Shown here in pieces: positions 15,332-32,352 of a DNA stretch of 64,000 bases. The stretch is from Jiella avicenniae (GTDB lineage: Bacteria; Pseudomonadota; Alphaproteobacteria; Rhizobiales; Rhizobiaceae). Positions within the stretch are counted from its first letter, which is position 1. Every line of letters starts with the position of its first letter. The notes under the pieces were generated by a model. It had not been told where the DNA came from. It saw only the letters and a program-made list of their open reading frames with translations, and did not search any database. The stretch covers positions 310,001 through 374,000 of the forward strand of contig NZ_JAJUWU010000004.1 of NCBI RefSeq assembly GCF_021390325.1. The letters run 5' to 3'. Both the position numbers and the translations under genes were made by a program.

Positions 15332-15922
15332 TCAAGCGTCCGTATCCTTCCACCGCCGCACCGTCCCGAGGTCGATGTCGAAGAGGTCGAGCACCCGCCC
15401 GATCGTGTGGTCGACCATGTCCATCAGCGTTTCGGGCTTGGCATAGAAGGCCGGCACCGGGGGGGCGATGATCGCGCCCATTTCGGAGAGTTGGGTCATC
15501 GTCCGGAGATGGCCGGTGTGGAGCGGCGTTTCGCGCAGCATGAGGACGAGGCGGCGGCGCTCCTTCAGGACGACGTCGGCTGCACGGGTGAGCAGCGTCG
15601 AGGTGACGCCGCCGGAAATCTCCGACATCGAGCGGATCGAGCAGGGCGCGACGATCATGCCCATGGTCTTGAACGAGCCCGACGAGATCGAGGCCGCAAT
15701 GTCCTCCTGACGCCAGGCGACGTCCGCCAACGCCCGGATCTCGGCGATCTTCATGGTCGTCTCGTAGGCGGCGGTGATTTCCGCCGAGCGCGACATGATC
15801 AGATGCGTTTCGATGGGCGTGTCTTTGAGCAGTTCGAGCAGACGAATCCCGTAGATCGTGCCGGAGGCCCCGGAAATGCCGACGATCAGCCGCTGGCGCG
15901 GTCCTGTTGCCCTGTCTGTCAT
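15332..15922 (-). CDS. ubiX: UbiX-type flavin prenyltransferase
   Basis: A 196-residue flavoprotein that makes prenylated FMN, the cofactor of UbiD-type decarboxylases. The nucleotide-binding loop GISGASGTIYG, the APCSIRSMSEI block and the RETPLHTGHLRTM segment are diagnostic. It is downstream of the LysR gene on the same strand, and only that regulator separates it from the divergent UbiD gene. Its job is therefore most likely to supply cofactor to that UbiD (HmfG role in furan clusters) rather than ubiquinone synthesis. A housekeeping role cannot be excluded. Confidence 0.93.
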   Translation of the reverse strand: MTDRATGPRQRLIVGISGASGTIYGIRLLELLKDTPIETHLIMSRSAEITAAYETTMKIAEIRALADVAWRQEDIAASISSGSFKTMGMIVAPCSIRSMSEISGGVTSTLLTRAADVVLKERRRLVLMLRETPLHTGHLRTMTQLSEMGAIIAPPVPAFYAKPETLMDMVDHTIGRVLDLFDIDLGTVRRWKDTDA

Positions 15923-16011
15923 CGTCCTCCCCGCGGTGCGCCGAACGACACGGGAGCATGCGGGCTCATCACGGTCCAGTGCTTTCCGGCGATGATTGTC
16001 ATAGCGCGCCG

Positions 16012-16935
16012 TTATGGCGTCGCGCCGATCGCCTTGGTCAGATCGGACGAGACCTCGATCATGCGCTCGCGCAATTCCTCGACGAAAAGTTCGGCTGCCC
16101 GGCTGAGGGGCCGCGCCGTGTTCGACAGACAGACGAGCCGGCGGGGCACCGAAGGCACGATGGGGTGCATGCGCAACCGCCCGGTTCGCAAGGCCCGATG
16201 GACTGCGATCGGCGGCAGGATGGTGGCAAAGCCGCTGTCGGGCAGGAACTCTTCGATGGTCTTCAACTCGTCGAACTCGAAACGCGGCGCAAGCGTCGCG
16301 TCATGGGCCGAAAACGCCGCGTCGATGATCAGGCGCAGCCCATGGCGTTGCGAGGGGATGACGAGATCGCGCTCGGCCGCCTCGCGGGGATGGAGCGTCG
16401 CCGGCAGGGGCGGATGGGCGATGTCACAGATCAGCGCCAGATCCTCGTTGATGATCGGCAGCGTGTCGAACCCCCGGCCGCCCCGCGATGGCGTGTTGAC
16501 GATGACGAGGTCGAGCTGGGCCGTCCGCAGCATCTCGATCAAATCCGTCGTGTAGCCGCCGGTCGCGCGCAGCGTCACCTCCGGATAGCGGCCGTGGAAG
16601 ATACGGAGCGTCTCCGACAGTGCATTGTTGGCGACGGAGGAGACCGCGCCCAATGAGACGTGGCCCTTCACCGTATCGCCGCCGATCGTCAGCGCGCGCC
16701 GCGCCTGTTCCACCTCGCGCAGGATCGGCTGGAAGCGGCGATAGGCATCGTCGCCGGCATGGGTGGGCACCATGCCCTTGGGCGTCCGGTAGAACAGCTT
16801 TTGCCCGATCGATTCTTCCAGCCGCGCGAGCTGCACGCTGACGGCCGGCTGCACGATGTTGAGCCGCTCGGCGGCGCGGGTGACCGACGCCTCCTCGTAC
16901 ATCGCGACGAAATAGCTCATCTGCCGAAGATCCAT
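16012..16935 (-). CDS. LysR-family transcriptional regulator
   Basis: A 307-residue regulator from the ATG at 16935 (preceded by GGGAGGGGAAGC). Residues 1-60 form the winged helix-turn-helix (ASVTRAAERLNIVQPAVSVQ). The rest is the effector-binding domain. It is divergent from the UbiD gene with 105 bp between them, and upstream of ubiX. LysR proteins of this arrangement usually activate the divergent operon in response to a substrate or intermediate, so a furan- or aromatic-carboxylate is the likely signal. That part is inference from position. Confidence 0.93.
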   Translation of the reverse strand: MDLRQMSYFVAMYEEASVTRAAERLNIVQPAVSVQLARLEESIGQKLFYRTPKGMVPTHAGDDAYRRFQPILREVEQARRALTIGGDTVKGHVSLGAVSSVANNALSETLRIFHGRYPEVTLRATGGYTTDLIEMLRTAQLDLVIVNTPSRGGRGFDTLPIINEDLALICDIAHPPLPATLHPREAAERDLVIPSQRHGLRLIIDAAFSAHDATLAPRFEFDELKTIEEFLPDSGFATILPPIAVHRALRTGRLRMHPIVPSVPRRLVCLSNTARPLSRAAELFVEELRERMIEVSSDLTKAIGATP

Positions 16936-16961
16936 CGCTTCCCCTCCCATAACGCAACGAT

Positions 16962-16992
16962 ATGGATGCCATCATCCCAAATTGTTGGCAAT
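16962..16992. promoter_or_regulatory. Candidate LysR operator between lysR and the UbiD operon
   Basis: Two short palindromes lie about 20 bp apart (centre to centre) in the 105-bp divergent gap: ATGG-ATG-CCAT at 16962-16972 and ATTG-TTGG-CAAT at 16981-16992. Spaced dyads of this size fit the binding and activation sites of a LysR tetramer. I infer the role from position only. Confidence 0.4.
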
Positions 16993-17040
16993 GATGCCTC
17001 GGACCGCACTAGCCTCGAAATCGGCAAGGGAGGACGCCAA

Positions 17041-18462
17041 GTGGATCAAACCGTCGCAGTTTCGCGAAGCGATCAGGACGGGGCGGGGAACGCCTATACC
17101 GATCTGCGCGGCTGGCTGAAGCGGCTCGAAGAGACCGGCCGTCTCGCGATTGCCAGGCCGGAAACGGCCCTGCACTTCACGCTCGCCGGCATCGCCAATC
17201 GCAACGACGGCGACCGGGCGACGATCTTTCCCAATCCTTCCGGACATTCCGGTACGGTCGTCTCGGGCCTCCTGTCCCAGCGCGCCTGGATGGCCGAGGC
17301 GCTCGGCATTGCCGAGGACGATCTGCTCGATCGCTTCCATGACGCCGAGAAGCATCCGCTCACGCCGGTCGAGATCGACGATGCGCCCTGCCAGGAAGTC
17401 GTCCACGAGAACGATTTCGATCTGGCAGACCTCCTGCCGATCCCGGTCCACAACGAGCATGACAGCGGCGCCTACATCACCGCCGGCCTGCTCATCTCCG
17501 CCAATCCGAAGACCGGCATCCAGAACGTCGCGATCCACCGGCTGCAGTTGTCCGGCCCCCGCGAACTCGGCGCCCTTCTCCTGCCGCGCCATACGCTGGC
17601 CTTCACCGACGCGGCGGAGGCGGAGGGTGCGGACCTTCCCGTCGCGATCGTCATCGGCGCGAGCCCGGCCTGCATGCTGGCGAGCCAGGCGATCGTGCCC
17701 ATCGATTTCGACGAGCTCGGCATTGCCGGCGCGCTCTGCGGTGCCCCGCTGGAGGTCGTGCGCTGCAAGGGGTCGCACCTCGTGGTGCCGGCCCGTTCGG
17801 AGATCGTCATCGAAGGGCGCTTGCGTGCCGGCAAGCGGGCCCCGGAAGGGCCGTTCGGCGAATTCCCGCAATATTACGGCGAGCGGGACGACCGTCACGT
17901 CATCGAGGTCGACCGGGTGACGACCCGGCGCAAGCCGCTGTTCCACACGATCGTCGGCGGCGGGCTCGAACATCTGCTTCTCGGCGGCATTCCCCGAGAG
18001 GCGACGATCCTCGCCGCGATGCGCCGCTCCCATCCCGGCGTCGTCGACGTCCATCTCTCGCGCGGCGGCGTCTGCCGCTACCATCTCTACGTCAAGCTCA
18101 AGCGCCGCGAGGCCGGCGAGGCGAAGAACGTGATCCTCGCCGCACTCGCCGCCCATTACGACATCAAGCATGTGATCGTCGTCGACGAGGACGTCGACAT
18201 CCACGATCCGACCGAGGTCGAATGGGCGGTGGCGACCCGCTTCCAGGCCGACCGCGACATGCTGGTGATCCCCGGCAGCCAGGGCTCGAAGCTCGACCCC
18301 TCGACCCAGAACGGTCTCGGCTGCAAGACCGGCTTCGACGCGACCGTCCCCGCCGGCTCACCGGAGTTCAAGTTCCGCCGCATCCGCGTGCCGGGCGAGG
18401 AGGAGATCGACCTCGAGGCCGCCCTCGATCCCACCGTGACCATCAAGGATGTGTTGTCGTGA
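17041..18462 (+). CDS. UbiD-family prenyl-FMN decarboxylase (probable furandicarboxylate decarboxylase, HmfF-like)
   Basis: A 473-residue UbiD-type decarboxylase from a GTG at 17041, chosen because AAGGGAGGAC lies just upstream. The prenyl-FMN/catalytic region EGPFGEFPQYYGERDD (about residues 273-288) and the C-terminal EVEWAVATRFQADRDM block are typical. The family adds or removes carboxyl groups on aromatic, heteroaromatic or alpha,beta-unsaturated acids. UbiX close by and a complete 2-furoate operon facing it suggest 2,5-furandicarboxylate to 2-furoate. 4-Hydroxybenzoate, vanillate or pyrrole-2-carboxylate are alternatives that sequence alone does not exclude. Confidence 0.88.
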   Translation: MDQTVAVSRSDQDGAGNAYTDLRGWLKRLEETGRLAIARPETALHFTLAGIANRNDGDRATIFPNPSGHSGTVVSGLLSQRAWMAEALGIAEDDLLDRFHDAEKHPLTPVEIDDAPCQEVVHENDFDLADLLPIPVHNEHDSGAYITAGLLISANPKTGIQNVAIHRLQLSGPRELGALLLPRHTLAFTDAAEAEGADLPVAIVIGASPACMLASQAIVPIDFDELGIAGALCGAPLEVVRCKGSHLVVPARSEIVIEGRLRAGKRAPEGPFGEFPQYYGERDDRHVIEVDRVTTRRKPLFHTIVGGGLEHLLLGGIPREATILAAMRRSHPGVVDVHLSRGGVCRYHLYVKLKRREAGEAKNVILAALAAHYDIKHVIVVDEDVDIHDPTEVEWAVATRFQADRDMLVIPGSQGSKLDPSTQNGLGCKTGFDATVPAGSPEFKFRRIRVPGEEEIDLEAALDPTVTIKDVLS

Positions 18463-18620: not shown

Positions 18621-18661
18621 CGACCACACCCAACCGAACCGCGAAGGGAGGAGATCGCGAA

Positions 18662-19657
18662 ATGAACATCTTCAAGAGAACGTTGGCCGCAGCCGGCGCC
18701 CTGATTCTGGCGACCACGGGAGCCATGGCCCAGGAGGGCGAGCCGGTCAGCCTGAAATTCGCCTCGTTCAACGTCGGCGGAAGCTGGTACATCTACGCCA
18801 CGACGCTCGCCGACATCGCCCAGAAGGCGCTGCCTGAAGGCTCTACCGTCGAGGTTCTTCCCTATCAGGGCGGCGTCGGCAATCCGATCCTGGTCAATCG
18901 CGGCGAGGCCGATCTCGGCCTGTCCTTCTCGGCGCTGTCGAACTGGGCACGCCAGGGCATCGTCAGCTTCAAGGAGCCACATGAGGACATTCGTGCCCTC
19001 ATCGGCGGCCTCAACGTGCCGCACCGTCTCGGCATCGTGGTGCGCAAGGACGCGGGGATCACCAGCCTCGACCAGGTCAAGGACAAGGCCGTGCGGCTCG
19101 TGACCGTGCAGCGCGGCGGCGCCGGCGAGGCGCTCGCGCAGATGGCGTTGGAAAGCTACGGCCTCACCTATGATGATGTCGAAAAGGCCGGTGGCCGCGT
19201 CACCAACATCGATTTGCCGGTGGCGATCCAGCAGCTGCGCGACGGCCAGGCCGACATGTTCATTCACAATATAGGCTACCGCCAGCCGGACGTGATGGAG
19301 CTCGCGCTCGGCGGCGACATCACCTTCATCCCGCTCGGCGAAGAGCAGATGAAGTCGATCTCCGAAAAATACGGCCTCCAGACCGGCCTGTCCGTGCGGG
19401 CCGGCGAGTTCGAGGGCGTCGAGGAAGCCGTTCCCTCGGTCGGCTATCCGACCGGCGTGATTGTCAATGCGAACATGTCCGACGATACGGCCTATTCGAT
19501 CGTCAAGGCGGTCTGCGAGAACCAGGAAAAGGTTCGCGAGGCGCATTCGAGCCTCGCCGAGTTCGACTGCAAGACTGCGGGCGAGCCCGGCCGTAACGGT
19601 GGCGTGCCGCTGCATCCCGGCGCCGAGCGCTACTACAAGGAACAGGGCTGGATGTAA
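18662..19657 (+). CDS. TAXI-family TRAP transporter solute-binding protein
   Basis: A 331-residue periplasmic binding protein. The ATG at 18662 follows GGGAGGAGATCGCGAA. A signal peptide ends near AMAQ (about residue 24). The mature protein has TAXI-family features: GGSWYIYATTLADIAQ, YQGGVGNPILVNRGEADLG and a C-terminal HPGAERYYKEQGW block. It delivers a carboxylate to the TRAP permease encoded downstream. Being between UbiD and the permease, its ligand is probably a furan- or aromatic (di)carboxylate. TAXI ligands are poorly known, so this is inference. Confidence 0.92.
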   Translation: MNIFKRTLAAAGALILATTGAMAQEGEPVSLKFASFNVGGSWYIYATTLADIAQKALPEGSTVEVLPYQGGVGNPILVNRGEADLGLSFSALSNWARQGIVSFKEPHEDIRALIGGLNVPHRLGIVVRKDAGITSLDQVKDKAVRLVTVQRGGAGEALAQMALESYGLTYDDVEKAGGRVTNIDLPVAIQQLRDGQADMFIHNIGYRQPDVMELALGGDITFIPLGEEQMKSISEKYGLQTGLSVRAGEFEGVEEAVPSVGYPTGVIVNANMSDDTAYSIVKAVCENQEKVREAHSSLAEFDCKTAGEPGRNGGVPLHPGAERYYKEQGWM

Positions 19658-19693
19658 TCCAGACAGCCGGGGTCTGAGGCTTTGTCCTTTCGC

Positions 19694-19738: not shown

Positions 19739-19770
19739 CAGGCCCCGGCGCCTCTTTCGTCTGGCTCCAG

Positions 19771-19800: not shown

Positions 19801-19895
19801 GGCCGAAAAATCTGGCGGTCATGCCCGCTGGTGTCGCGACGACCCGTCAGGCCGCATCGGGTCTGGTGCCGAGCCCCGCCGTACCATTGCTTTCC

Positions 19896-19971: not shown

Positions 19972-21891
19972 ATGAAGCCGTTGCAGTATGCCATACGCGG
20001 TGTGGCGATCGCGCTGACCCTGCTCCAGCTCTGGACCATCCTGGTCGAGCCGCTGCCGCTGATCCTGCACTACGTGCTGTTCCTCGCGGCGACCCTGATC
20101 CTGGTCTTCGGTGAGACCCTCGATCAGCGCACGGGTCTGCAGAGGATCATCGATCTCGCCCTGATCGCCGCGACTATCGGTTGGGCGGTCTTCATGGCCC
20201 TCAACATCGAGCGCTACGTCACCCGGATCGCCTTCGTCGACCGGCCGACCACCGGAGACGTGATCGCCGGCGTGGCGCTGATAGTCACCCTGTTCGAGGC
20301 AACGCGCCGGGCCGCCGGCTGGGGGCTCTTCGTGATCGCGCTGCTGTTCACGGCCTATGCCTTCTTCGGCAATGTCCTGCCGATCTCGATCGGCCATTCG
20401 GGCATGTCGCTGTCGCGCTTCATCGACGTGCAGGTGTTGTCCAACAACGGCATCTTCGGCATCCCGCTCGGCGCCGTCGTCAGCTATATCTTCTTCTTCA
20501 TCCTGTTCGCCACCTTCCTGGAAATTTCCGGCGGCGGCCAGCTCTTCATCGATCTCGCCTTCTGGCTGACCGGCCGCACCCGCGGCGGACCGGCGAAGAG
20601 CGCCGTCATCGCGTCGGGCCTGATGGGCTCGATCAACGGCTCGGCGGTGGCGAACGTCGTCGGCACCGGCACCTTCACGATCCCGCTGATGCGCCGCTTC
20701 GGCTACAAGCCGCCTTTTGCGGCGGCCGTGGAAGCGGCATCCTCCACCGGCGGCCAGTTGATGCCGCCGATCATGGGGGCTGCCGCCTTCGTCATGGTGG
20801 AGCTCACCGGGCTCGACTATGTCACGATCCTTCTCGGCGCGGCGGTTCCCGCTCTCCTCTACTACCTCGCCATTCTCTTCGCGGTCGATCTGACGGCCAA
20901 GCGTGACGGCCTGCGCGGCCTCAAGGGCGACGAGATGCCGGATGTGAAGACCGGCCTTTGGAAGCGCCTGCATCTGCTCCTGCCGCTGGTCATCCTCGTC
21001 TACATGATGATCGACGGCTCCTCGCTCGCCATGGCCGCGATCTATGCGCTGGCGGCGACGGTCGCCGTCTCGATGATCACCAGGGAAACCCGGCTGACCT
21101 TCTGGAAGGTGGTCGAGGGCTTCGAGAAATCGGCCATGTCGATCCTGATCGTCGCCGTGCCCTGCGCCATGGCGGGGCTGATCATCGGCGTGATCGTCCA
21201 GACCGGCATCGGGCTCAAATTCACCGGCTTCATCCTGGCGCTCTCCGAGGGCAGCCTGCTTCTCTCCCTCATCGCCGTCATGGTGGCCTGCATCATCCTC
21301 GGCATGGGCATGCCGACGGTCTCGGCCTACATCATGGTCGCGATCCTGATGGCGCCGGCACTGACCCAGCTCGATCTCTATATCCTGTCGGTCCACCTCT
21401 TCATCTTCTACTTCGCACTTCTCTCCTTCGTGACGCCGCCGGTGGCGCTGGCCTCCTACGCGGCGGCCGCGCTCGCCCAGACCAATTCGACGACGACCGG
21501 CTGGCAAGCCTTCAAGCTGACGCTGCCGGGCTTCCTCATTCCCTTCGCCTTCGCCTACAACCCGGCGCTGGTGATGAACGGCGAGTGGTGGGAGGTGATC
21601 TGGGTCACGGCCACCTGCGCCTACGGCATCTTCGGCATCGCCGGAGCCTTCGTCGGTACGCATTTCCGCCGCTCCACCACGATCGAGCGGGCGGTTGCCC
21701 TGGTCGCCGCCATCCTTCTGATCTCGCCCGAAGGGATCACCGACATCATCGGCGCCGTGCTGATGACCGGAATGCTCGCCTGGCAGCTGCAGCGGCCGAA
21801 CGATGACGCCGAAGCGTCGGCCAAGACCGGCCCGCAGCCCGCCGAGACCCGTGAACCGTCCGTCCAGGAGATCCCCCGCCATGCCGGCTGA
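19972..21891 (+). CDS. TRAP transporter fused permease (4TM + 12TM)
   Basis: A 639-residue membrane protein. The small DctQ-like part (about residues 1-120) is fused to the large DctM-like part, as is usual for TAXI-type TRAP systems. Family motifs include GSINGSAVANVVGTGTFTIP, EAASSTGGQLMPPIMGAAAF and GMGMPTVSAYIMVA. It should import the TAXI protein's ligand using the sodium or proton gradient. Its end overlaps the aldehyde dehydrogenase start by 11 bp, so the two are coupled. Confidence 0.94.
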   Translation: MKPLQYAIRGVAIALTLLQLWTILVEPLPLILHYVLFLAATLILVFGETLDQRTGLQRIIDLALIAATIGWAVFMALNIERYVTRIAFVDRPTTGDVIAGVALIVTLFEATRRAAGWGLFVIALLFTAYAFFGNVLPISIGHSGMSLSRFIDVQVLSNNGIFGIPLGAVVSYIFFFILFATFLEISGGGQLFIDLAFWLTGRTRGGPAKSAVIASGLMGSINGSAVANVVGTGTFTIPLMRRFGYKPPFAAAVEAASSTGGQLMPPIMGAAAFVMVELTGLDYVTILLGAAVPALLYYLAILFAVDLTAKRDGLRGLKGDEMPDVKTGLWKRLHLLLPLVILVYMMIDGSSLAMAAIYALAATVAVSMITRETRLTFWKVVEGFEKSAMSILIVAVPCAMAGLIIGVIVQTGIGLKFTGFILALSEGSLLLSLIAVMVACIILGMGMPTVSAYIMVAILMAPALTQLDLYILSVHLFIFYFALLSFVTPPVALASYAAAALAQTNSTTTGWQAFKLTLPGFLIPFAFAYNPALVMNGEWWEVIWVTATCAYGIFGIAGAFVGTHFRRSTTIERAVALVAAILLISPEGITDIIGAVLMTGMLAWQLQRPNDDAEASAKTGPQPAETREPSVQEIPRHAG

Positions 21892-23338
21892 CCTGCTCGC
21901 CCAAATCCGGATCGGCCGCCGCATCGTCGACACGGCGGCGACCCACCCCTCGATCAATCCGGCGACCGGGGAAACCCTGGGAGCCATCGCCGACGCCGGC
22001 GTCGAAAAGGCCGAGATGGCGATCGAGGCCGCGCGCCACTGCTTCGACCATTCCTTGTGGGCGCAGTCGCCGCGCCTGCGTCAGGACATCCTGCTCGCCT
22101 GGGCGAGCGGGCTCGAAGCCATCACCGAAGAGGCCGCGCGCTGGCTGACGCTGACCAACGGCAAGCCGCTCGCCGCCGCCAGGGGCGAGATCGCCGCTTC
22201 CGTCAGCGAGATCCGCTATTATGCGGGGCTCGCCCGCCACAATCCCGGCCATGCGATGGAGGTGGCGCCCGGCGAAGTCTCGGTCATGCTGCGCGAACCG
22301 GCGGGCGTCGCCGGCATCATCGTGCCCTGGAACGCGCCCGCGGTGCTCCTGATCCGCTCGCTCGCGCCGGCGATCGCGGCGGGCTGCACGTCGGTCATCA
22401 AACCCGCGCCGCAGACGGCCGCCTTCACCGATGTCTGCCTGCGCCCGCTTCTGGAACTGCCGCAATTGCCGGATGGGGCGATCTCGGTCCTGCCGGAAGC
22501 GGGTCACGCGGTCTCTCAGGCTCTCGTCACGAGCCCGGCGGTCGACGTCATCTCCTTCACCGGCTCCAACGCGGTCGGCCAGTCGATCATGGCCGCCGCC
22601 GCTCCCACCATGAAGAAGCTGTCGCTCGAACTTGGGGGAAAAAGTTGCTGCATCGTATTGGAGGATGCCGACGTTGCCGCGATCGCGCCTAAACTGGCGG
22701 CGGCCGCGACCATCATTTCCGGCCAGCAATGCACGGCCGCCCGGCGCATCCTCGTCCATGAAAGCCGGTTTGAGGAGACGAAGGCGGCGCTCGCCGCCGC
22801 GCTCGAGGCAACGAAGATCGGCGACGGCCTCGATGCTGGAACCCAGATGGGCCCGCTGATCAGCGCCGCCGCACGCGATGCCGTCAAGACGCGAATTGAG
22901 GAAGTCTTCGACACGGCGGACGAGGTGGTGCTTCGCCATTCCGTCCCCGCCGACGGGCCTGCGGGTTCGGCCTTTCTGACGCCCTCGCTCGTCGCCCATC
23001 ACGATCCGAAGGCCGATTTCTGTCAGGAGGAGATCTTCGGCCCGATGCTGGTCATCGAGCCTTTCTCAAACGAAGTCGAAGCCGTCGCCAAGGCGAACGA
23101 CACGGTCTACGGTCTGTCCGCCTCGGTCTGGACCAATCGCGGCGACGCCGCCTGGCGGATCGCCCGGGCGTTGCGCGACGGTACGGTCTGGATCAACGAC
23201 CACAACAAGCTCTTCGCCGAAGCCGAAACCGGCGGCTATCGCCGCTCCGGCCTCGGCCGCCTCCACGGCTTCGACGCGCTGCTCGACTTCTGCGAACTCA
23301 AGCACGTCTACCAGAATGTCGGCGTTGTCGGGATGTGA
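21881..23338 (+). CDS. NAD(P)-dependent aldehyde dehydrogenase
   Basis: A 485-residue ALDH-superfamily enzyme from the ATG at 21881. The general-base glutamate is E250 in LELGGKS and the catalytic nucleophile is C284 in GQQCTAARR. The Rossmann motif FTGSNAVGQ and the substrate-site block EEIFGPMLVI are also present. It is the last gene of the UbiD-TAXI-TRAP operon. In this setting it may oxidise a furan aldehyde (furfural, 5-formyl-2-furoate) to the acid. Benzaldehyde-type substrates from the ThDP-enzyme operon are an alternative. Substrate choice cannot be read from sequence. Confidence 0.92.
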   Translation: MPADLLAQIRIGRRIVDTAATHPSINPATGETLGAIADAGVEKAEMAIEAARHCFDHSLWAQSPRLRQDILLAWASGLEAITEEAARWLTLTNGKPLAAARGEIAASVSEIRYYAGLARHNPGHAMEVAPGEVSVMLREPAGVAGIIVPWNAPAVLLIRSLAPAIAAGCTSVIKPAPQTAAFTDVCLRPLLELPQLPDGAISVLPEAGHAVSQALVTSPAVDVISFTGSNAVGQSIMAAAAPTMKKLSLELGGKSCCIVLEDADVAAIAPKLAAAATIISGQQCTAARRILVHESRFEETKAALAAALEATKIGDGLDAGTQMGPLISAAARDAVKTRIEEVFDTADEVVLRHSVPADGPAGSAFLTPSLVAHHDPKADFCQEEIFGPMLVIEPFSNEVEAVAKANDTVYGLSASVWTNRGDAAWRIARALRDGTVWINDHNKLFAEAETGGYRRSGLGRLHGFDALLDFCELKHVYQNVGVVGM

Positions 23339-23381
23339 TCCTGCGGCGCGTCGCCGGTCTGCGGCGGCGCGCCCTTCGGAT

Positions 23382-24650: not shown

Positions 24651-24717
24651 TTTTATCCTCCCTTTCATGGAGGGGCCGTCCGGCCCTCCGCCGGACGATG
24701 CCCCTCGTCGATGCGGC

Positions 24718-25524
24718 TCAGCGGCCGGTGAAGTTGGGCTTGCGCTTTTCGTGGAAGGCTTCGACGCCTTCCTTGAAGTCTTCCGACTGGCGCAGGCGGC
24801 TGTAGTTGAGCCCTTCGAGCTCGATCGCCGTCGTCAGGAAGGCGTCGTCGGTCTCGTTCAGCATCTTCTTCGCCGTGCGCTGGGCCATCGGCGAGAACTC
24901 CAGGAGCTCGTCCACCAGCGCGTCGACGGTTTTCTCGAGATCGGCGTCGGCGACGCATTCCGTGGCGATGCCCCAGGCTTCGGCCGTCTTGCCCGGAATG
25001 CGCTTGGAGCGCATGACGATGTCCTTCGTCCGGGTGACGCCGACGATCTTCTGGAGCCGCGCCGAACCGCCGGAGCCGGGGATCTGGCCGAGCTTCTGCT
25101 CGGGCAGGGCGTAGCGGCAGGTCTCGGACACGATGCGGAAGTCGCAGGCGAGAGAGATTTCGAAGCCGACGCCGAAGGTGTAGCCGCGATTGGCGGCGAT
25201 CACCGGCTTCGAGCAGCGGGCGGGTGCGGCGATGTTCCAGGCGAGCTTGGAGACGTGCTCGGGGCTTGCTTCCATGAAGCCCTTGATGTTGCCGCCCGAC
25301 GAGAAGTGCTCGCCCTCGCCGGCGAGCACGATGATGCGGACGCGATCGTCCTCGTCCAGCGTCTCGAAGACGAGGCGAAGCTGGTCGCGCTGGCCCATCG
25401 AGACGACGTTGTAGGGCGGGCGCGACAGGATCACGTCGGCGCGCTGCTTGGCCGGATCGATCGTCACCTTGAAGCCGTCGAGCGTAGCAAGCCGCGGGTC
25501 GGTGAAGGAATAGGGTTCGCTCAT
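24718..25524 (-). CDS. hmfE: Crotonase-fold enzyme, probable 2-oxoglutaryl-CoA hydrolase (HmfE-like)
   Basis: A 268-residue enoyl-CoA hydratase/isomerase-family protein. The oxyanion-hole segments (FSSGGNIKGF and YTFGVGFEISLACD) and an acidic residue in LPEQKLGQIPGSGGSARL are present. It lies directly after the CoA ligase gene. In the known furoate pathway the matching enzyme acts after ring hydroxylation and opening, releasing 2-oxoglutarate and CoA. Without the neighbours it could only be called a crotonase-family protein, so the specific name rests on context. Confidence 0.78.
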   Translation of the reverse strand: MSEPYSFTDPRLATLDGFKVTIDPAKQRADVILSRPPYNVVSMGQRDQLRLVFETLDEDDRVRIIVLAGEGEHFSSGGNIKGFMEASPEHVSKLAWNIAAPARCSKPVIAANRGYTFGVGFEISLACDFRIVSETCRYALPEQKLGQIPGSGGSARLQKIVGVTRTKDIVMRSKRIPGKTAEAWGIATECVADADLEKTVDALVDELLEFSPMAQRTAKKMLNETDDAFLTTAIELEGLNYSRLRQSEDFKEGVEAFHEKRKPNFTGR

Positions 25525-25542: not shown

Positions 25543-27099
25543 TCAGGAGTGTTGGGCGTCGTTGCCCGAAGGCGCGGTCTTTTCCGCCTCGAAGTCGCCG
25601 GAAACGAGCATGCGGCGCAGCAGCTTTCCGACCGGCGATTTCGGGATCTGGTCGACGAACACGTAAGCGCGCGGGCGACGGAAATTGGCGAGACCGGAGG
25701 TCTTGCAATGGGCGTCGAGATCGGCCTCGGCGACGAGCCGAGAGCGCTTGACGAAGGCGGTGACCACCTTGCCCCAGCGCTCGTCGGGAAGCCCGACGAC
25801 GGCCACTTCCTCCACGGCCGGATGGAGCGACAGGCAGCTCTCCACTTCGACCGGCGAGACGTTTTCCCCGCCGGTGATGATCATGTCGTCGGCACGGCCG
25901 GTGACGAAGAGATCGCCGTCCTCGTCGAAATAGCCGGTGTCGCCGGTGAAGTACCAGCCGTCCCGGAGCGACTTGGCGGTGGCTTCCGGGCGCTTCCAAT
26001 AGCCCTCGAACGCCTCGTCACCTTTCAGCGACGCGACGATCTCGCCCTCTTCGCCGGGCTTTGCACGGGTCTCGGCGTCATTGGCGCCGAGCGGCACCAC
26101 GCGGATCATCTGGTTGAGGCCGGAGCGTCCCGCAGAACCCGGCTTCAGCGGCGCCTTCTGGTCGATCGTGCAGGTATAGACCTCCGACGAGCCGTAGTGA
26201 TTGACGAAGAGCTCCGGCTGGAACGCCTCGTTCAGCTTCTTCATCAGCCCGTCGGTCATCGAGGCGCCGGCAAAGCCGAGCTTCGTCACCGAGGCGACGC
26301 GCTCCTTCGAGAAGGCCTTGTGATGCAGGATGTCGTGATAGAGCGTCGGCACGAGATAGAGGTTGGTGACCTTCTTCGTCTCGATCGCCCTCAGCGCGCC
26401 CTCGACATCGAAGCGCCGCAGGCAGACGAAGGCGCCCCCGATCAGCGAGGTGGCGAGCAGCGAGCGGACGCCCATCGTGTGATAGAGCGGCATGACGCCG
26501 AGCGTGCGCTCGCCATGCCGGTAGAGGTTCTGGGCGACATGGGCGATGGCGGCGGCGCGCTCGGCCCGGTGGCGGCGCGGCACGCCCTTCGGCCGTGACG
26601 TCGTGCCGGAGGTGTAGAGCATCAGCGACCAGTCGTCGGCCGAGGCTTGCGGGGTCGCGTCGGCGGCCTTGGCGGCCAGCATGTCGTTCAGGGAATGAGC
26701 GCCGCCTTCAGCGTCGCCCGCGATCACGCGCGGAAGGTTCTGCGCTTTTCCAGACTCTGCCACGGCCTCGGCGGAGACATCCTGATAGAACAGCGCCTTG
26801 GCCTCCGAGTCCGCCAGCGCGTAGTCGATCTCGTCGGGTTTCGCCCGCCAGTTGATCGGCGTGATGACGATGCCGGCGAGCTGGCAGGCCCAATGGAGGG
26901 AGGCGTTCTCCCAGCGGTTCTGCATGACGGTCACGACGTGGTCGCCTTGCTTCAGACCCATCGCATCGAGGCCGTCGACGAGGGCCGAGATCTTTGCGAA
27001 CCATTCGCCATAGGTGAGGTCCAGATCGCCGTCGGAGATCGCCAGCGCGTTCGGATCGCGCTCGACGCTGGCGAGAAGGCTGGTGCCGAGATCAAGCAT
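25543..27099 (-). CDS. hmfD: Acyl/aryl-CoA ligase, probable 2-furoate-CoA ligase (HmfD-like)
   Basis: A 518-residue AMP-forming ligase. The P-loop motif LMLYTSGTTSRPKGVP, the NHYGSSEVYT motif, the adenylate-binding GWYFTGDTGYFDEDGD segment, the hinge GRADDMIITGGENVSP and the C-terminal catalytic lysine region PKSPVGKLLRR are present. It resembles chlorobenzoate- and furoate-CoA ligases. The ATG at 27099 follows AAGGAGGAG and overlaps the iron-sulfur subunit gene by 8 bp. It should activate the acid with ATP and CoA so that the molybdenum enzyme can hydroxylate the ring. Confidence 0.83.
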   Translation of the reverse strand: MLDLGTSLLASVERDPNALAISDGDLDLTYGEWFAKISALVDGLDAMGLKQGDHVVTVMQNRWENASLHWACQLAGIVITPINWRAKPDEIDYALADSEAKALFYQDVSAEAVAESGKAQNLPRVIAGDAEGGAHSLNDMLAAKAADATPQASADDWSLMLYTSGTTSRPKGVPRRHRAERAAAIAHVAQNLYRHGERTLGVMPLYHTMGVRSLLATSLIGGAFVCLRRFDVEGALRAIETKKVTNLYLVPTLYHDILHHKAFSKERVASVTKLGFAGASMTDGLMKKLNEAFQPELFVNHYGSSEVYTCTIDQKAPLKPGSAGRSGLNQMIRVVPLGANDAETRAKPGEEGEIVASLKGDEAFEGYWKRPEATAKSLRDGWYFTGDTGYFDEDGDLFVTGRADDMIITGGENVSPVEVESCLSLHPAVEEVAVVGLPDERWGKVVTAFVKRSRLVAEADLDAHCKTSGLANFRRPRAYVFVDQIPKSPVGKLLRRMLVSGDFEAEKTAPSGNDAQHS

Positions 27100-27604
27100 T
27101 TTCGGGGGTCTCCTCCTTCATGCGTGCTTGCGCCGCGAGCGCCGCCTTGACGATCGGCGCGTAGCCGGTGCACCGGCAGAGATGGCCGGACAGATGTTCG
27201 CGGATCGCCTCCTCCGAGGCGTCGGGCTCGCGCGTCAGCAGCGCGTCGAGGCTCATCAGGATGCCGGCGGTGCAGAAGCCGCATTGGAGCGCGAAGTGCT
27301 CGCGAAACGCCGCCTGAAGGGGCGACAGCTCGCCGGCGGCGGGCTCCAGCCCCTCGACCGTGCGGATGTCCGCGCCCTCGGCCTGGGCCGCCAGCATCAG
27401 GCAGGCGCGCACCGGCTCGCCGTCGAGCTGCACCGTGCACGCCCCGCAGACACCGTGCTCGCAGCCGACATGGGTGCCGGTCGCGCCGACGACATGGCGC
27501 AGGACGTCGGTCAGGAGCATCCGCCCCTCGGCCTCGGCCGTGACCTCGCGCCCGTTCAGGCGGAAGGTGATCGCATGCCGCCTCTCGCGGTTCAGCTTCG
27601 GCAT
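27092..27604 (-). CDS. hmfC: 2Fe-2S subunit of molybdenum hydroxylase (furoyl-CoA dehydrogenase small subunit)
   Basis: A 170-residue iron-sulfur protein. The N-terminal plant-ferredoxin-type cluster has C48, C53, C56 and C68 (CEHGVCGAC...C). The C-terminal helical cluster has C108, C111, C143 and C145 (CGFC...CRC). Both 2Fe-2S sites of the xanthine dehydrogenase family are therefore complete. It passes electrons from the molybdenum subunit to the FAD subunit. GGAGG precedes the ATG at 27604. It overlaps the genes on both sides by 8-13 bp. Confidence 0.92.
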   Translation of the reverse strand: MPKLNRERRHAITFRLNGREVTAEAEGRMLLTDVLRHVVGATGTHVGCEHGVCGACTVQLDGEPVRACLMLAAQAEGADIRTVEGLEPAAGELSPLQAAFREHFALQCGFCTAGILMSLDALLTREPDASEEAIREHLSGHLCRCTGYAPIVKAALAAQARMKEETPENA

Positions 27605-28422
27605 TGTATGGCCTCCTCGACGGTCCGGCGCCCGAGCTTGCGGACGAGGTCGCGGCGATAGCGGGCGCTGGCGTGCAGGTCGTCGCGGGCGTTCAGCGCC
27701 CAGGCGAATTCGTTGAGTGCGTCGTCGAAACCGTCATCGGACGGGGAGGGGAGTTCGGTCACCTGGGGCGTATCGGCGACGCCGCCGATGGCGAGGCGGT
27801 TCCTGCCGTCCGGCCTAGCGATCGCGGCGCAGGCGACGATGGCGAAATCCCCATGCCGCCGCGCGACCTCGTGAAAGGCGGTGCCGGTTCCCATGGCGTG
27901 AACGGGAAAGGAGACGGCTTCGATCATCTCGCCGGGCGCGACCGCCGTTGCCATCATGCCCATGAAGAAATCGCTCGCCGGAAGAACCCGCGCCTTTCGG
28001 CGGCTCCTGAGATGCACTCGGCCTTGCAGCGCCAAAAGCGCCAGCGGCAGTTCGGCGCTCGGATCGGCATGGGCGAGCGAGCCGCAGATCGTGCCCCGCG
28101 CCCGGGTCTGGGCATGACCGACCCAGGGCATCATCGCATTCACAAGAGGCAGAAGCTTTGCCAGCGGCGCCCAGCGTTCGAGCTCGACCTGACGCACGCC
28201 GGCGCCGATGACGATCGATCCCTTGCGCTCCTCGATCCGCTTCAGCTCGGCGAGCCGGGTGATGTCGACCAGCACAGAAGGCCGCGCGAGGCGCATGTTG
28301 AGCATCGGCACGAGCGACTGGCCGCCGGCGATCACCCGGGCCTCGTCGCCCGCTTGAGAGAGCGCGTCGAGCGCCTCGTCCAGGGTTTCGGCGCGCACAT
28401 AGTCGAACGGAGCCGGCTTCAT
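27592..28422 (-). CDS. hmfB: FAD-binding subunit of molybdenum hydroxylase (furoyl-CoA dehydrogenase medium subunit)
   Basis: A 276-residue CoxM/XdhB-type protein from the ATG at 28422, which overlaps the large-subunit stop as ATGA. The FAD motifs VIAGGQSLVPMLNMRL and TICGSLAHADPSAELP are present. Only three cysteines occur in the whole chain and there is no four-cysteine 4Fe-4S loop. That argues against 4-hydroxybenzoyl-CoA reductase (HcrB) and for an oxidative enzyme such as furoyl-CoA dehydrogenase. Confidence 0.9.
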   Translation of the reverse strand: MKPAPFDYVRAETLDEALDALSQAGDEARVIAGGQSLVPMLNMRLARPSVLVDITRLAELKRIEERKGSIVIGAGVRQVELERWAPLAKLLPLVNAMMPWVGHAQTRARGTICGSLAHADPSAELPLALLALQGRVHLRSRRKARVLPASDFFMGMMATAVAPGEMIEAVSFPVHAMGTGTAFHEVARRHGDFAIVACAAIARPDGRNRLAIGGVADTPQVTELPSPSDDGFDDALNEFAWALNARDDLHASARYRRDLVRKLGRRTVEEAIQCRS

Positions 28423-31400
28423 CGGCCACCCCCGATCAGGTCCTTGATCCGTCCGAACCACCCAACTCCCGGCACTTTGCCCCCTCCGGCATGGTTGGCG
28501 AGCGCCTTGAAGAACTGGCCGATCACCACGCGTGCCGCCCCATCGAGCAGCCGCCCGCCGACCGAGGCGACCTTGCCGCCGATCGCGGCCTCGTAGGAAT
28601 AGGCGATCCGGGTCCTGCCGCTTCCCAGATCCTCGAGCGTGATCCGCCCCGAGCCTTCGCCGAAGCCGAGCGCCCCGACCGTCCTGCCGGTGAGCGTGAC
28701 GGCGTTCGGCTCGTCGAGATCGGAAAGCGCGATGTCTGCCTTGTAACGGCCCTTCACCGGGCCGACGCCCAGCGTCACGTCCGCCTTGAACTGGGTTTCC
28801 GACACCTTCTCGACGCCGTGGGAGCCCGGAATGATCGCATCGAGCGTCGCCGGGTCGAGCAGCATGCGCCACACGTCTTCCCGCGACGCCGCGACATCCG
28901 CCGCGCCTTCACCGGTCAGCTTGCGCTGGCCGCCGGGTGACAATTCCTCCGCAGGCTTCGGCGTCATCTTCGGCTGCGGTTCCTCGCTCTCATCGAGACG
29001 AGCGAGCAGGCCGGCGATGCTGCTCGGCGACAGCGGCAGGGTCAGATCGTCGGCGCCGATGGCGTCGGCGACGGCATTGGCGATGCAGACGGGCGTCGAC
29101 ATGCAATTGCCCTCGCCCACGCCCTTGGCGCCGAGCGGTGTGAAGGGCGACGGGCTCTCATGATGGAGGATCACCGGCTCCGGCACCTCCATCACGGTCG
29201 GGATCAGATAGTCGGCAAGCGTGCCCGACTGGAAGCTGCCATCGGCACCGTAGGCGTATTCCTCCAGCAGTGCGGCCCCCAGCGCATGGGCGAACCCGCC
29301 GCGCACCTGGCCCTCGACCATCGCCGGATGCAGGATCGTGCCGCAGTCGTGCATCGTCACGTAGCGGTCGATCCGGGTCTCGCCGGTCGCGGGGTCGATC
29401 TCCACCCCGCAGAAATCGAAGATGAAGCCGTGGCAGAGCGAAGAGTTCACCTCATCCTCGCGGGTCGGCGCCTGGAGTTCGTCCGGCGTCCAGAACACCG
29501 TCTCGCGGATCGTCTGGTCGACCGAGCCGGGCAGCGTGCCGGGCGCCCAATGGGCCGCCGCCGCCACGCGGGCAAAGGAGACGGAGTTGTCCGGATTGGT
29601 GCGCGACAAGGCACGGCCCTTGGCGAAGTCGACGTCGTCGGTCTTGACGTTCAACTGAGCGGCGGCGATCTCGGCGAGCTTCACGCGCAGCCGGTCGGCT
29701 GCAAGCTTCGCTGCTCCCGCAACGGCCGGTGCGAAGCGGCTCGAATAATTGCCCGACGCGATCGACCAGGCGTCGCGGGACGTATCTACATCGGCGAGGA
29801 CGGAGATCGTCTTCGGATCGAGGCCGAGAGCGTCGGCGACGACCTGCGACAGCACCGTGCGATGGCCCTGGCCCTGGGGCACCGAGGCGACCTTGACCGA
29901 GACCGCGCCGAGCGGATCGATGGCGACGGTCGCGGTCGCCTGCGCGCCGTTCTTCGGACCGGCCTTTTCGCGCTGCTCGGGCGACAGGACCGTGGTGATG
30001 TAGCCCATATTGGAGACGGAGGGCTCGACCACGGCGGCCATGCCGATACCGTAGAGCCGGCCTTCGGCGCGCGCCGCATCCCGCCTCTGCTTCAACTCGT
30101 CGAGCCCGCCCTCTTCGACCGCCCGGTCGAGCGCCGTTTGGTAGTCCCCGGAGTCGAGCAGCGCGCCGCTTATGGTGCGATAGGGAAAGGCGTCGGCGGG
30201 GACGAGATTGCGCCGGATGACGGCGAGCGGATCGAGGCCGAGATCCCTGGCGACCCGCTGCATCAGCCGTTCGAGCGCGAAATAGATTTGCGGGCCGCCG
30301 AAGCCGCGATTGAGCCCGGTCGGCGTCTTGTTGGTGAGGACCACGCGGTTGCGGATCGACAGATTCTCGATCGCGTAGGCGCCGGTCATGTTGCCATGCA
30401 TGCGATAGAGCGTCGCCGGCTCGGGCGCGCGCAGATGCGCGCCGCAATCCTCGATCTGGTCCCAGGCAAGCGCGGTGATCCGCCCATCCGGTTCGACGGC
30501 CGCTTCCAGCGTCGTCACCCGGTTCGTTGCCGAGACGGAGGCGGCGAGATGTTCGAGCCGATCCTCGATCCACTTGACCGGGCGACCGGCGATCCGCGCT
30601 GCCACCCCCATCAGGATCATGTAGGGAAAGACGCCCTGCTTGATGCCGTAGCTGCCGCCGGAAGACGGCGGCGTCTTCAGCCGCATCCGGTTGCCGGGCA
30701 CGTTCAGTGCGCGGGCGACCACCGCATGGATCGAGAACGGACCCTGGAAATTGGCGAGGATGTCATAGGCGTCCTCGCCCGGATCATAGCTCGCGACGAC
30801 GCCGTAGGTTTCGATCGGCGTGCAGGAATTGCGCGGATAGGTGACCTCGACTTTCACCCGCCGCGGGGCCGAGGCGAAGGCCGCATCCGGATCGCCGTAG
30901 GAGAAGGAGCGCTCGTTGATCAGGTTCGAGCCGAGCGACGGATGCAGAACCAGCGCGTCGCTCTTCAGCGCCGCAACCGGTTCCACAGCCGCCGGGAGAA
31001 CTTCATAATCGACCGCGACCTTTTCGGCCGCGTCCTCGGCGAGATAGCGGTTCGCCGCGACGACGATCGCCACCGGCTCGCCGACATAGCGCACCCGGTC
31101 CGTCGCGACCGGCCAGCATTCGACGTCGGCCTTGACGCCGACGGTCATCGAGCGCGTCAGGCGCATGACGTCCTCGCCGGTGACGACGGCGGCAACGCCC
31201 TTGGCGTTCAGGGCCTCGGTCACGTCGATCGATCGGATCACCGCATGGCCATGGGGCGAGCGCACGATCGCGGCTTCGAGGGTGCCGGTCCGCGTCGCGA
31301 GATCGTCGATGAATTGTCCCCGGCCGGTCACCAGCGCGGCATCCTCGACACGCGCGAGCGAACGTCCGACCCAGCGGTCGGCGGTCGGATTGATCGTCAT
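28419..31400 (-). CDS. hmfA: Molybdopterin large subunit of furoyl-CoA dehydrogenase fused to a CoxG domain
   Basis: A 993-residue protein. Residues 1 to about 790 are a xanthine dehydrogenase-type molybdenum subunit: N-terminal RVEDAALVTGRGQFIDD, PPSSGGSYGIKQ, LNRGFGGPQ, PQGQGHRT, and the catalytic glutamate E763 in GVGEGN. After a short linker, about residues 828-993 form a separate CoxG/SRPBCC-like domain (GEGAADVAASREDVWRMLLD, later IIPGSHGVEKV). CoxG is normally a separate membrane-associated protein of CO dehydrogenase clusters. The ATG at 31400 follows GGGAGGCTCA. In context it hydroxylates furoyl-CoA at C5. Other heteroaromatic-CoA substrates are possible. Confidence 0.85.
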   Translation of the reverse strand: MTINPTADRWVGRSLARVEDAALVTGRGQFIDDLATRTGTLEAAIVRSPHGHAVIRSIDVTEALNAKGVAAVVTGEDVMRLTRSMTVGVKADVECWPVATDRVRYVGEPVAIVVAANRYLAEDAAEKVAVDYEVLPAAVEPVAALKSDALVLHPSLGSNLINERSFSYGDPDAAFASAPRRVKVEVTYPRNSCTPIETYGVVASYDPGEDAYDILANFQGPFSIHAVVARALNVPGNRMRLKTPPSSGGSYGIKQGVFPYMILMGVAARIAGRPVKWIEDRLEHLAASVSATNRVTTLEAAVEPDGRITALAWDQIEDCGAHLRAPEPATLYRMHGNMTGAYAIENLSIRNRVVLTNKTPTGLNRGFGGPQIYFALERLMQRVARDLGLDPLAVIRRNLVPADAFPYRTISGALLDSGDYQTALDRAVEEGGLDELKQRRDAARAEGRLYGIGMAAVVEPSVSNMGYITTVLSPEQREKAGPKNGAQATATVAIDPLGAVSVKVASVPQGQGHRTVLSQVVADALGLDPKTISVLADVDTSRDAWSIASGNYSSRFAPAVAGAAKLAADRLRVKLAEIAAAQLNVKTDDVDFAKGRALSRTNPDNSVSFARVAAAAHWAPGTLPGSVDQTIRETVFWTPDELQAPTREDEVNSSLCHGFIFDFCGVEIDPATGETRIDRYVTMHDCGTILHPAMVEGQVRGGFAHALGAALLEEYAYGADGSFQSGTLADYLIPTVMEVPEPVILHHESPSPFTPLGAKGVGEGNCMSTPVCIANAVADAIGADDLTLPLSPSSIAGLLARLDESEEPQPKMTPKPAEELSPGGQRKLTGEGAADVAASREDVWRMLLDPATLDAIIPGSHGVEKVSETQFKADVTLGVGPVKGRYKADIALSDLDEPNAVTLTGRTVGALGFGEGSGRITLEDLGSGRTRIAYSYEAAIGGKVASVGGRLLDGAARVVIGQFFKALANHAGGGKVPGVGWFGRIKDLIGGGR

Positions 31401-31470
31401 TGAGCCTCCCTGACGCCGCATTGGGCGCCGTTTGCGGGAGATTAGACGCGCACGCTCATGGCCGGCGATC

Positions 31471-31500
31471 CCGAGGAGTCGCGCGGCTTACCGAGGAGTC
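31471..31500. promoter_or_regulatory. Direct repeat with 20-bp period, candidate AraC operator of the furoyl-CoA operon
   Basis: The decamer CCGAGGAGTC occurs twice without mismatch, at 31471-31480 and 31491-31500, with 10 bp between copies, so the period is 20 bp. It lies immediately after the araC stop and 71-100 bp upstream of the large-subunit start. AraC-family activators bind direct half-sites about two helical turns apart at such a distance from their promoter. The role is inferred from spacing and place. Confidence 0.55.
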
Positions 31501-32352
31501 TCAAAATCGGTCGCGGGTGAGGGCGGAGACCGTCCGGAACGTGGTCGGCGACGAGCCGACGTGATCGTGGAAGAATCGCGAGAAATGCGCCGGCGCCGAG
31601 AATCCGAGGCCGTCGGAAACGGTGGCGAAGGATGCGGTCCCTTCCGCCACCGCCGCGACGGCCCGCTCCATACGCACGACGTTCAGATAGATGCGGGGGC
31701 TGACGTTCAGCGAGGCCTCGAACAGGCGAAAGAAATGCGCCCGCGACAGGCCGACGTCGCTGGCGAGCCTGTCGATGTCGGTGACTGCGCCGGGGTCGGC
31801 CCGCATCGTCTTCGTTGCCTTGCGGATACGATGATCGACGGCCGAAGCGGCTGCAAGCCGGAGCGAGGCCGGCGTATCGCGCCAGGCGGCGAAGCGTTCG
31901 ATCACCGCGATCATCAACCCGGCCAGGAGCCGCTCGTGCTCAGCCTCGTTGCCCGGATCGCGGACCATCGCCTCGGCGAGTATCCGCGAAAGCGATCGAA
32001 TCCGCGGGTTCGTCGCGCCGACGGGATCGGGAAAGAAATCCGGCGCGCCGCTCGCCTTCCAGTTCGGTCGGAACTCGCCGAGCCAGCTCGGCTCGATGTA
32101 AAGCGCCAGGATGACGGTCGCCGGCTGCCCTTCGAAATGGGCATAGGCGTGGGGCTCCCAGGCATTGATCAGAACGGCGCTCTCATCGGTCAGCGGCACG
32201 ACGCGCTCGGCGACGGAAAACTGCGTGTCGGCCCCCTCGACCTTCAGGAGCACATGGCAATGGGGATGGGCGTGGCGCACGAGCGGGCGATCCATGTCGA
32301 GCAGCGCGACACGGCCGAAGCTTCCTCTCGCAAGTCGCAGCGCATTCGACAT
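31501..32352 (-). CDS. AraC-family transcriptional regulator
   Basis: A 283-residue regulator. The N-terminal half is a cupin-like sensing domain (VRHAHPHCHVLLKVEG, then INAWEPHAYAHF). The C-terminal 100 residues contain the two helix-turn-helix motifs (IDRLASDVGLSRAHFFRLFE and FATVSDGLGFSAPAHFSRFF). It is upstream of, and in line with, the molybdenum hydroxylase operon, with 100 bp between. It is the obvious candidate activator of that operon in response to 2-furoate or furoyl-CoA, by inference from position. Confidence 0.93.
   Translation of the reverse strand: MSNALRLARGSFGRVALLDMDRPLVRHAHPHCHVLLKVEGADTQFSVAERVVPLTDESAVLINAWEPHAYAHFEGQPATVILALYIEPSWLGEFRPNWKASGAPDFFPDPVGATNPRIRSLSRILAEAMVRDPGNEAEHERLLAGLMIAVIERFAAWRDTPASLRLAAASAVDHRIRKATKTMRADPGAVTDIDRLASDVGLSRAHFFRLFEASLNVSPRIYLNVVRMERAVAAVAEGTASFATVSDGLGFSAPAHFSRFFHDHVGSSPTTFRTVSALTRDRF

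Follow-up and report, generated by a model that had tools for sequence, protein, structure and literature searches.

A probable hmf-type locus for furandicarboxylate and 2-furoate in Jiella avicenniae, with a CoxG domain fused to HmfA and a possible front end for furan hydroxy-acids

Two groups of genes converge on one contig of the Jiella avicenniae genome (5.17 Mb), one containing a UbiD-type decarboxylase and the other a molybdenum hydroxylase; what do they break down, and do they belong together? Both lie in a 64,000-nucleotide stretch of DNA, hereafter the window, for which an earlier note had proposed a complete catabolic locus for furandicarboxylate and 2-furoate. Our analysis, in which gene starts and stops were re-checked on the letters of the window, indicates that this proposal is right in the main: the window very probably holds an hmf-type locus for the catabolism of furandicarboxylic acid (FDCA) and 2-furoate. 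Each gene named in the note proves to be an open frame that matches a protein family, at the position given there. Like gene sets occur in Dinoroseobacter, Cupriavidus and Pseudomonas loci, so the locus is of a known kind. It has two additional features, a front end possibly feeding furan hydroxy-acids and an HmfA protein with its own probable membrane anchor.

The locus is organized as two halves that meet at 23338–23382. In the left half, the genes for the flavin prenyltransferase UbiX, in the HmfG/PsfC role (15332–15922; TIGR00421, 236.8 bits, cut-off 108.9), and a LysR-type regulator (16012–16950; Pfam HTH_1 and LysR_substrate) run leftward on the reverse strand. Those for the UbiD decarboxylase (17041–18462, with a GTG start), a TAXI-family TRAP solute-binding protein (18662–19657; TIGR02122, 181 bits, cut-off 84.35), a fused TRAP permease (19972–21891; TIGR02123, 625.2 bits, cut-off 320.65) and an aldehyde dehydrogenase (21881–23338; Pfam Aldedh, 447.1 bits) run rightward on the forward strand. 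The right half lies wholly on the reverse strand and reads leftward, beginning with an AraC-type regulator (31501–32352; Pfam HTH_18, 64.4 bits) and HmfA, the predicted molybdopterin subunit of furoyl-coenzyme A (CoA) dehydrogenase with a fused C-terminal CoxG domain (28419–31400; Pfam MoCoBD_1, MoCoBD_2 and COXG). It continues with the flavin adenine dinucleotide (FAD) subunit (27592–28422; Pfam FAD_binding_5, 160.7 bits) and 2Fe-2S subunit (27092–27604; Pfam Fer2_2, 99.8 bits) of the molybdenum hydroxylase, an AMP-forming acyl-CoA ligase matching HmfD (25543–27099; Pfam AMP-binding, 222 bits), a crotonase-fold enzyme matching HmfE (24718–25524; Pfam ECH_1, 168.7 bits) and a BenE-type transporter (23382–24668; TIGR00843, 207.5 bits, cut-off 203.4).

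What does the decarboxylase act on? UbiD, like UbiX, is present in a single copy in the genome. Its best solved relative is 6h6v, named PtHmfF (PMC8988006), at 409 bits, followed by a variant chain of the same enzyme; the next different solved enzyme, which acts on indole-3-carboxylate, scores 225 bits, and the pyrrole enzyme PA0254 scores 85–88 bits. The catalytic arginine and two glutamates and a histidine of the furan pocket are identical in 37 of 37 relatives, counted by alignment column, and all are present in the window; a second arginine is kept in 35 of these relatives and is lysine in two. The 37 remain after seven copies were dropped (L001, L085, L087 and L131, which are the window's own gene, and L088–L090, which equal L091–L093), and the count leaves out places aligned over fewer than about 380 residues. 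The conserved histidine falls at chain position 296 in the 6h6v alignment and is taken to be the same residue as H297 of HmfF, which is described as key to furan specificity and is replaced by N318 in PA0254 (PMC7976604). Distant UbiDs (26–31% identical) carry other residues at this column. An enzyme of the same chemistry might instead have thiophene-2-carboxylate, pyrrole-2-carboxylate or related five-ring acids as its main substrate, and PA0254 is reported to accept a modest range of heteroaromatic acids that includes thiophene-2-carboxylate (PMC7976604). This is very unlikely for the UbiD of the window, which resembles HmfF much more strongly than PA0254, retains the specificity histidine and stands in a gene run that matches hmf loci. 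The earlier identification of the protein as HmfF is thus upheld: by homology and pocket residues, UbiD is of the HmfF type, with a predicted role as FDCA decarboxylase.

The right half was compared with the best 80 of 576 confirmed loci from a search with the HmfD ligase, all counts applying within the examined stretch. In 72 of these, hereafter core loci, relatives of all five hmfA–E genes are present in that stretch, and the order hmfA-B-C-D-E is collinear in all 72, so the grouping of these genes is not due to chance; HmfE relatives of at least 60% identity occur in 77 of the 80. hmfABCDE is the predicted furoate operon, in which the genes for the ligase and the crotonase adjoin those for the three molybdenum-hydroxylase subunits in collinear order. 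The subunits could also be thought to form a carbon monoxide (CO) dehydrogenase or a 4-hydroxybenzoyl-CoA reductase rather than a furoyl-CoA dehydrogenase, since among solved proteins CoxL comes closest to the large subunit (404 bits), whose C-terminal domain is CoxG-like. We consider this exceedingly improbable. HmfA relatives in hmf loci reach 1196–1708 bits where complete, and in every complete locus the genes for ligase and crotonase stand next to it. A Mo-Cu CO dehydrogenase was rejected on the conserved active-site loop, which reads PTGLNRGFGGPQ in the alignment and differs from the Cu-binding loop motif of CoxL. A 4-hydroxybenzoyl-CoA reductase was rejected on the FAD subunit, which has only three cysteines and no 4Fe-4S cluster loop, as the earlier note had also read it; this subunit gives full-length matches to the 6-hydroxypseudooxynicotine, CO and quinoline enzymes, and the reductase subunit HcrB matches only residues 10–117, at 33.8 bits. 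The molybdenum enzyme, ligase and crotonase are relatives of those in hmf loci, as had been proposed.

Do the two halves belong to one pathway? If they were separate pathways adjacent by chance, the left would not feed the right, and some observations fit this: each half has its own regulator and its own candidate operator, 42 of the 72 core loci have no UbiD of at least 50% identity in the examined stretch, and the left half is absent from most of the same-genus genomes listed. Against it, such a UbiD is present in 30 of the 72 core loci, in several different orders, and the conversion of FDCA to furoate is a proven link in Pseudomonas umsongensis GO16, in which a hmfF deletion mutant is reported to grow on furoate and not on FDCA (PMC12064950). 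Chance adjacency is, in our judgement, highly improbable. The gene order, which had been called distinctive, is so only in part: the genes themselves are already known together, and it is the convergent layout that is rare. UbiD convergent with and downstream of hmfA–E is found in one of the 72 core loci (L036) and in two congeners of the window's genome, G300 and G304.

In a single FDCA and furoate pathway, TAXI-TRAP would import a furan dicarboxylate, UbiX would make prenylated flavin mononucleotide (FMN), and the HmfF-type UbiD would then decarboxylate FDCA to 2-furoate, as its close homology suggests. The aldehyde dehydrogenase would oxidize 5-formylfuroate or furfural to FDCA or furoate, and BenE would import furoate, as was earlier suggested for another locus (PMC6678421). 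By homology, HmfD would form furoyl-CoA, which HmfABC would hydroxylate at C5 with water, passing electrons through the 2Fe-2S and FAD subunits, and HmfE, with or without another hydrolase, would yield 2-oxoglutarate. Of all this, the genes and their order, the residues of the pocket, the domain fusion and the conserved sites can be read directly from the sequence.

Several observations weigh against this assignment. The claim that each step is covered was overstated, because the opening of the lactone has no assigned gene (PMC6678421). No gene of the PsfG or HmfH type for oxidation of 5-hydroxymethylfurfural (HMF) was identified in the locus. Neither the ligase nor the crotonase nor the aldehyde dehydrogenase exceeds an NCBIfam cut-off in the 25 top-scoring models for each. 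UbiD matches occur in three of ten same-genus genomes listed, the window's own counted, and the FDCA half is therefore patchy. The TAXI-TRAP pair is absent between the aldehyde dehydrogenase and UbiD in G304, and TAXI matches of at least 30% identity occur in two of the 80 loci, at most a weak presence.

How does the locus compare with those already described? Pseudomonas umsongensis GO16 is reported to have hmfA–E, hmfF, a UbiX-type accessory protein, a 5-formyl-2-furoate (FFCA) dehydrogenase and two transporters, and likewise a LysR regulator for the upper and an AraC regulator for the lower genes (PMC12064950). The window differs in its TAXI-TRAP and BenE transporters, its convergent halves and the genes to the left described below. 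The GO16 report also lists psfG, psfD, hyd and HmfT/HmfI; psfG, psfD and hyd were not looked for across the J. avicenniae genome as a whole. Pseudomonas pseudoalcaligenes CECT 5344 has hmfABCDE followed by benE, proposed there as a furoate transporter, and an AraC-type activator; psfD lies beside araC, and the accessible part of that report mentions no UbiD half (PMC6678421). Dinoroseobacter shibae pDSHI01 shares UbiX, LysR, UbiD, aldehyde dehydrogenase, AraC, hmfA–E and a TIGR02444 gene beside UbiX. It differs in running from UbiD to hmfE in one direction, with an ABC transporter after hmfE, and in having a short-chain dehydrogenase/reductase (SDR) and a TRAP binding protein beyond TIGR02444. 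The locus on plasmid pAB510a of Azospirillum sp. B510 has UbiD, hmfA–E, UbiX, LysR and aldehyde dehydrogenase genes, as well as both genes of the front end discussed below; it differs in that these two genes, UbiD and hmfA–E are on one strand, with a sodium-symporter-like frame (judged by eye) between, and in giving no AraC match. A Cupriavidus oxalaticus plasmid carries LysR, UbiD, UbiX and hmfA–E; this locus is 55–72% identical to that of the window, comparable to the 59–80% reported between CECT 5344 and C. basilensis HMF14 (PMC6678421).

Transport genes seem to be swapped often in hmf loci. BenE, a possible furoate importer, has relatives of at least 60% identity in 30 of the 80 loci. The TAXI-TRAP pair, a possible FDCA importer, is conserved at 86–88% in G300; we rejected it as a usual part of hmf loci given its count among the 80; within the order, two of 297 genomes, the window's own included, have TAXI matches at E ≤ 1e-60. 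Both congeners (L091 and L092) have a second TAXI-TRAP pair, 34–46% like the first, whose TAXI protein has a 65% relative in a Pseudolabrys hmf locus (L075), and G304 also has an SDR gene together with frames that resemble DctP, DctQ and DctM as judged by eye. In G300 an enolase-superfamily gene that passes no NCBIfam cut-off stands between TAXI and UbiD. No paper joining TRAP transporters with furandicarboxylic acid and hmf was found among the open-access papers searched. The PsfA-like role of the aldehyde dehydrogenase is suggested by its genomic place, as hmf loci elsewhere, one each in Dinoroseobacter and Bosea and one in each of two Azospirilla, contain relatives of 63–70% identity.

Three features of the window were missed in the earlier note: the candidate operators, HmfA's CoxG domain and a run of genes at 11579–15011 that includes a thiamine diphosphate (ThDP)-dependent enzyme and a hydroxy-acid dehydrogenase.

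How might each half be controlled? Conservation of the sites suggests that each half would have its own regulator, LysR for the FDCA genes and AraC for the furoate genes, acting at a single operator close by. The probable LysR operator is an interrupted palindrome in the divergent LysR–UbiD promoter (16971–16995), ATCATcCCAAattgTTGGcaATGAT. It is identical in G300, has one change in G304 and is not present letter for letter in L036 or L003; it is found once in the genome at up to three mismatches. The AraC regulator has relatives of at least 50% identity in 68 of the 80 loci, and its probable operator is a direct repeat with a 20-bp period upstream of hmfA (31465–31502, reverse strand), recognized as a pattern in hmfA-upstream regions. 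A first form of this pattern matched 33 of 74 such regions, and a looser form, written after the misses had been seen, matched 63; in single-base shuffles the two gave 0 and 1 matches of 14,800. Of the 11 misses of the looser form, L004 and L065 have no such site by eye, and the other nine appear by eye to be variants. The pattern occurs once in the genome. Beyond the tested stretches there are seven further matches, in five Bradyrhizobium loci, in L056 and in L094, the last of which holds hmfA on the other strand. In the Bradyrhizobium loci (L057, L068, L071, L079 and L082) this second match is near 0.4–1.3 kb on the minus strand, and in L056 it is near 3.5 kb; such extra matches may mark further regulon genes.

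Where would the electrons from furoyl-CoA go? The CoxG domain occupies residues 833–971 of the HmfA translation (28491–28907, reverse strand; PF06240, 93.4 bits, cut-off 22.2), and a Pfam CoxG domain is present at the C-terminus of all 29 HmfA proteins scanned, that of the window and 28 of 70 full-length ones. A model of the last 190 residues (mean predicted local distance difference test score, pLDDT, 78.3, low in the tail) matches 2pcs, 2ns9 and Mycobacterium smegmatis CoxG, 8uds; a full-length HmfA model (mean pLDDT 70.3, predicted template modelling score 0.56) carries no claim here. The window's domain thus has the SRPBCC fold in common with the CoxG of CO dehydrogenase systems and differs in being fused to the molybdenum subunit; the title of 8uds, 'minus lipid anchoring C-terminus', points to a lipid-anchoring C-terminal stretch there. 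Across 75 HmfA proteins, the net charge of the last 20 residues ranges from +1 to +6 (median +3); elsewhere in the proteins the median is 0, and +3 is attained in 7% of stretches. The median hydrophobic moment is 0.53 in the tail and 0.39 elsewhere, where the 90th percentile, 0.57, lies above the value of the tail.

The CoxG fusion and the basic tail suggest membrane or quinone coupling, and the domain probably keeps the enzyme at the membrane, much as separate CoxG-like proteins are reported to anchor partner enzymes (PMC11962113). The domain could, instead of being a plain anchor, be a quinone carrier that makes furoyl-CoA oxidation respiratory. In favour of this, PMC13240472, citing Kropp et al. 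2025, describes a CoxG that binds menaquinone and transfers electrons to the quinone pool from CO dehydrogenase, and the model of the HmfA domain matches M. smegmatis CoxG. On the other side, a Sulfolobus CoxG-like protein is reported only to anchor G3PDH, which reduces quinones without it, and Oligotropha CoxG is cited as a membrane recruiter with no enzymatic effect (PMC11962113). We regard the carrier role as quite possible, with a chance somewhat short of even. No paper linking CoxG with HmfA was found among the open-access papers searched; the accessible part of PMC8941161 mentions CoxG and furoyl-CoA apart. Elsewhere in the genome there is a stand-alone CoxG-like frame of 173 codons (C10:56000–56419) and there are two weaker CoxG matches on contigs C45 and C49, so the domain is not confined to HmfA.

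Does the locus extend to the left of UbiX? Three overlapping genes lie there on the forward strand. The first encodes a ThDP-dependent enzyme of the PRK08327 family, a possible keto-acid decarboxylase (11579–13270; NCBIfam NF006203, 675.6 bits, cut-off 456). Its stop is overlapped by the start of an FMN-dependent alpha-hydroxy-acid dehydrogenase resembling LldD and MdlB (13270–14523; Pfam FMN_dh, 372.6 bits, with the best NCBIfam model below its cut-off). The third is a DUF2390/TIGR02444 protein (14520–15011; TIGR02444, 89.3 bits, cut-off 48.3). In the mandelate pathway (mdlB, mdlC and mdlD), an FMN hydroxy-acid dehydrogenase, a ThDP enzyme and an aldehyde dehydrogenase act together. These three families are the likeness to the window, and they also stand in one locus in L138, L139 and G300; the difference is that the window's ThDP enzyme fits PRK08327 and scores only 180.6 bits against the benzoylformate decarboxylase model, whose cut-off is 493.

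The two genes might be unrelated neighbours with no part in furan breakdown. Neither is present in G304, in an examined stretch that reaches the contig end. Within the 80 loci of the ligase search, the ThDP gene is found in one and the dehydrogenase in none. The ThDP relatives occupy 22 places outside the window's genome, of which 20 were examined (without G486 and G761); around these 43–53% relatives an HmfF-like UbiD was found in three stretches, all of one genus, and not in the other 17, many of them short, where three have distant UbiDs (26–31%) and 14 none. Roseomonas marmotae has a 55% ThDP relative and no UbiD in the examined stretch. Against this stands the company that some relatives keep. 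G300 retains the ThDP enzyme at 88% and the dehydrogenase at 90%, and the two best of 893 plasmid records, both at 59%, are in Azospirillum sp. B510 and A. oryzae, where the ThDP gene accompanies the dehydrogenase (49–50%), UbiD, UbiX, LysR and an aldehyde dehydrogenase (L138 and L139). In B510, hmfA–E follow UbiD; in A. oryzae they were not found in the examined stretch, and the match to the ligase is on a different plasmid. The ThDP gene of Roseomonas L065 comes directly after UbiD, with one more frame before hmfA. In L172, L174 and L178, from three genomes of one other genus, a 47–48% relative is the immediate neighbour of an HmfF-like UbiD in which all five residues are present. These last three are a different locus built round the same UbiD–ThDP pair, in the order AMP-ligase (about 31% like HmfD), HmfF-like UbiD, ThDP enzyme and SDR (6025–12753 in L174). 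In a ThDP tree of 29 rows, the window groups with G300, Azospirillum, Roseomonas L065 and R. marmotae (support 97/96); the UbiD-linked rows are not one clade, and require three label changes, a number as low being reached in 0 of 500 shuffles, although near-copies favour such clustering. Taken together, we place the chance of unrelated neighbours appreciable yet under one half, and the ThDP gene is probably part of the locus.

What could such a front end be for? The ThDP and FMN genes may form a mandelate-like branch, perhaps for 2-furylglycolate. This acid is reported to be made from glucose through the fungal compound cortalcerone (a reference cited in PMC7910265) and is listed in tobacco root exudate (PMC3813511), which makes it conceivable as a natural substrate. 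The locus would then be longer than the hmf loci described in the papers cited here. The FMN dehydrogenase would oxidize 2-furylglycolate, its 5-carboxy form or a similar furan alpha-hydroxy acid; from the resulting keto acid, the ThDP enzyme would produce furfural or 5-formylfuroate by decarboxylation, and the aldehyde dehydrogenase and HmfF would then feed furoate. Furoyl-CoA oxidation would in turn be respiratory because the CoxG domain of HmfA itself would draw quinone from the membrane. That both hold together, the branch at the start of the locus and the respiratory oxidation, is a speculative combination that we consider unlikely as a whole.

The third gene of this run is a common neighbour of UbiX: it adjoins UbiX in the window, G300, G304, D. 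shibae, Roseomonas L065 and Bosea, and in Bosea L141 (10395–11518) the two genes overlap by 4 bases. DUF2390 as a part specific to hmf loci was rejected, since in a sample of 30 loci, out of 77 genomes with a match and in stretches of about 3.3 kb or less, UbiX is present in 10 and no UbiD match was found. The DUF2390/TIGR02444 protein is a possible UbiX partner. At the other end of the locus, a long frame beside AraC (32881–36144, reverse strand) looks by eye like a resistance-nodulation-division (RND) efflux pump. As the earlier note had observed, no GMC-type HMF oxidase is present in the locus; two GMC-oxidoreductase matches lie elsewhere in the genome (C2:140872–141762 and C50:28450–29322).

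FDCA serves as a monomer for bioplastics, and heated biomass gives rise to furans that act as inhibitors, which makes it useful to have a decarboxylase, transporters and operators as parts from a further bacterial family. If the ThDP enzyme and the dehydrogenase do belong to the locus, they would point to a natural class of furan substrates that goes unmentioned in the accessible portions of the hmf papers cited here. Those same portions leave the natural electron acceptor of furoyl-CoA dehydrogenase unnamed, and the fusion of a CoxG domain to HmfA opens quinone coupling to a direct test.

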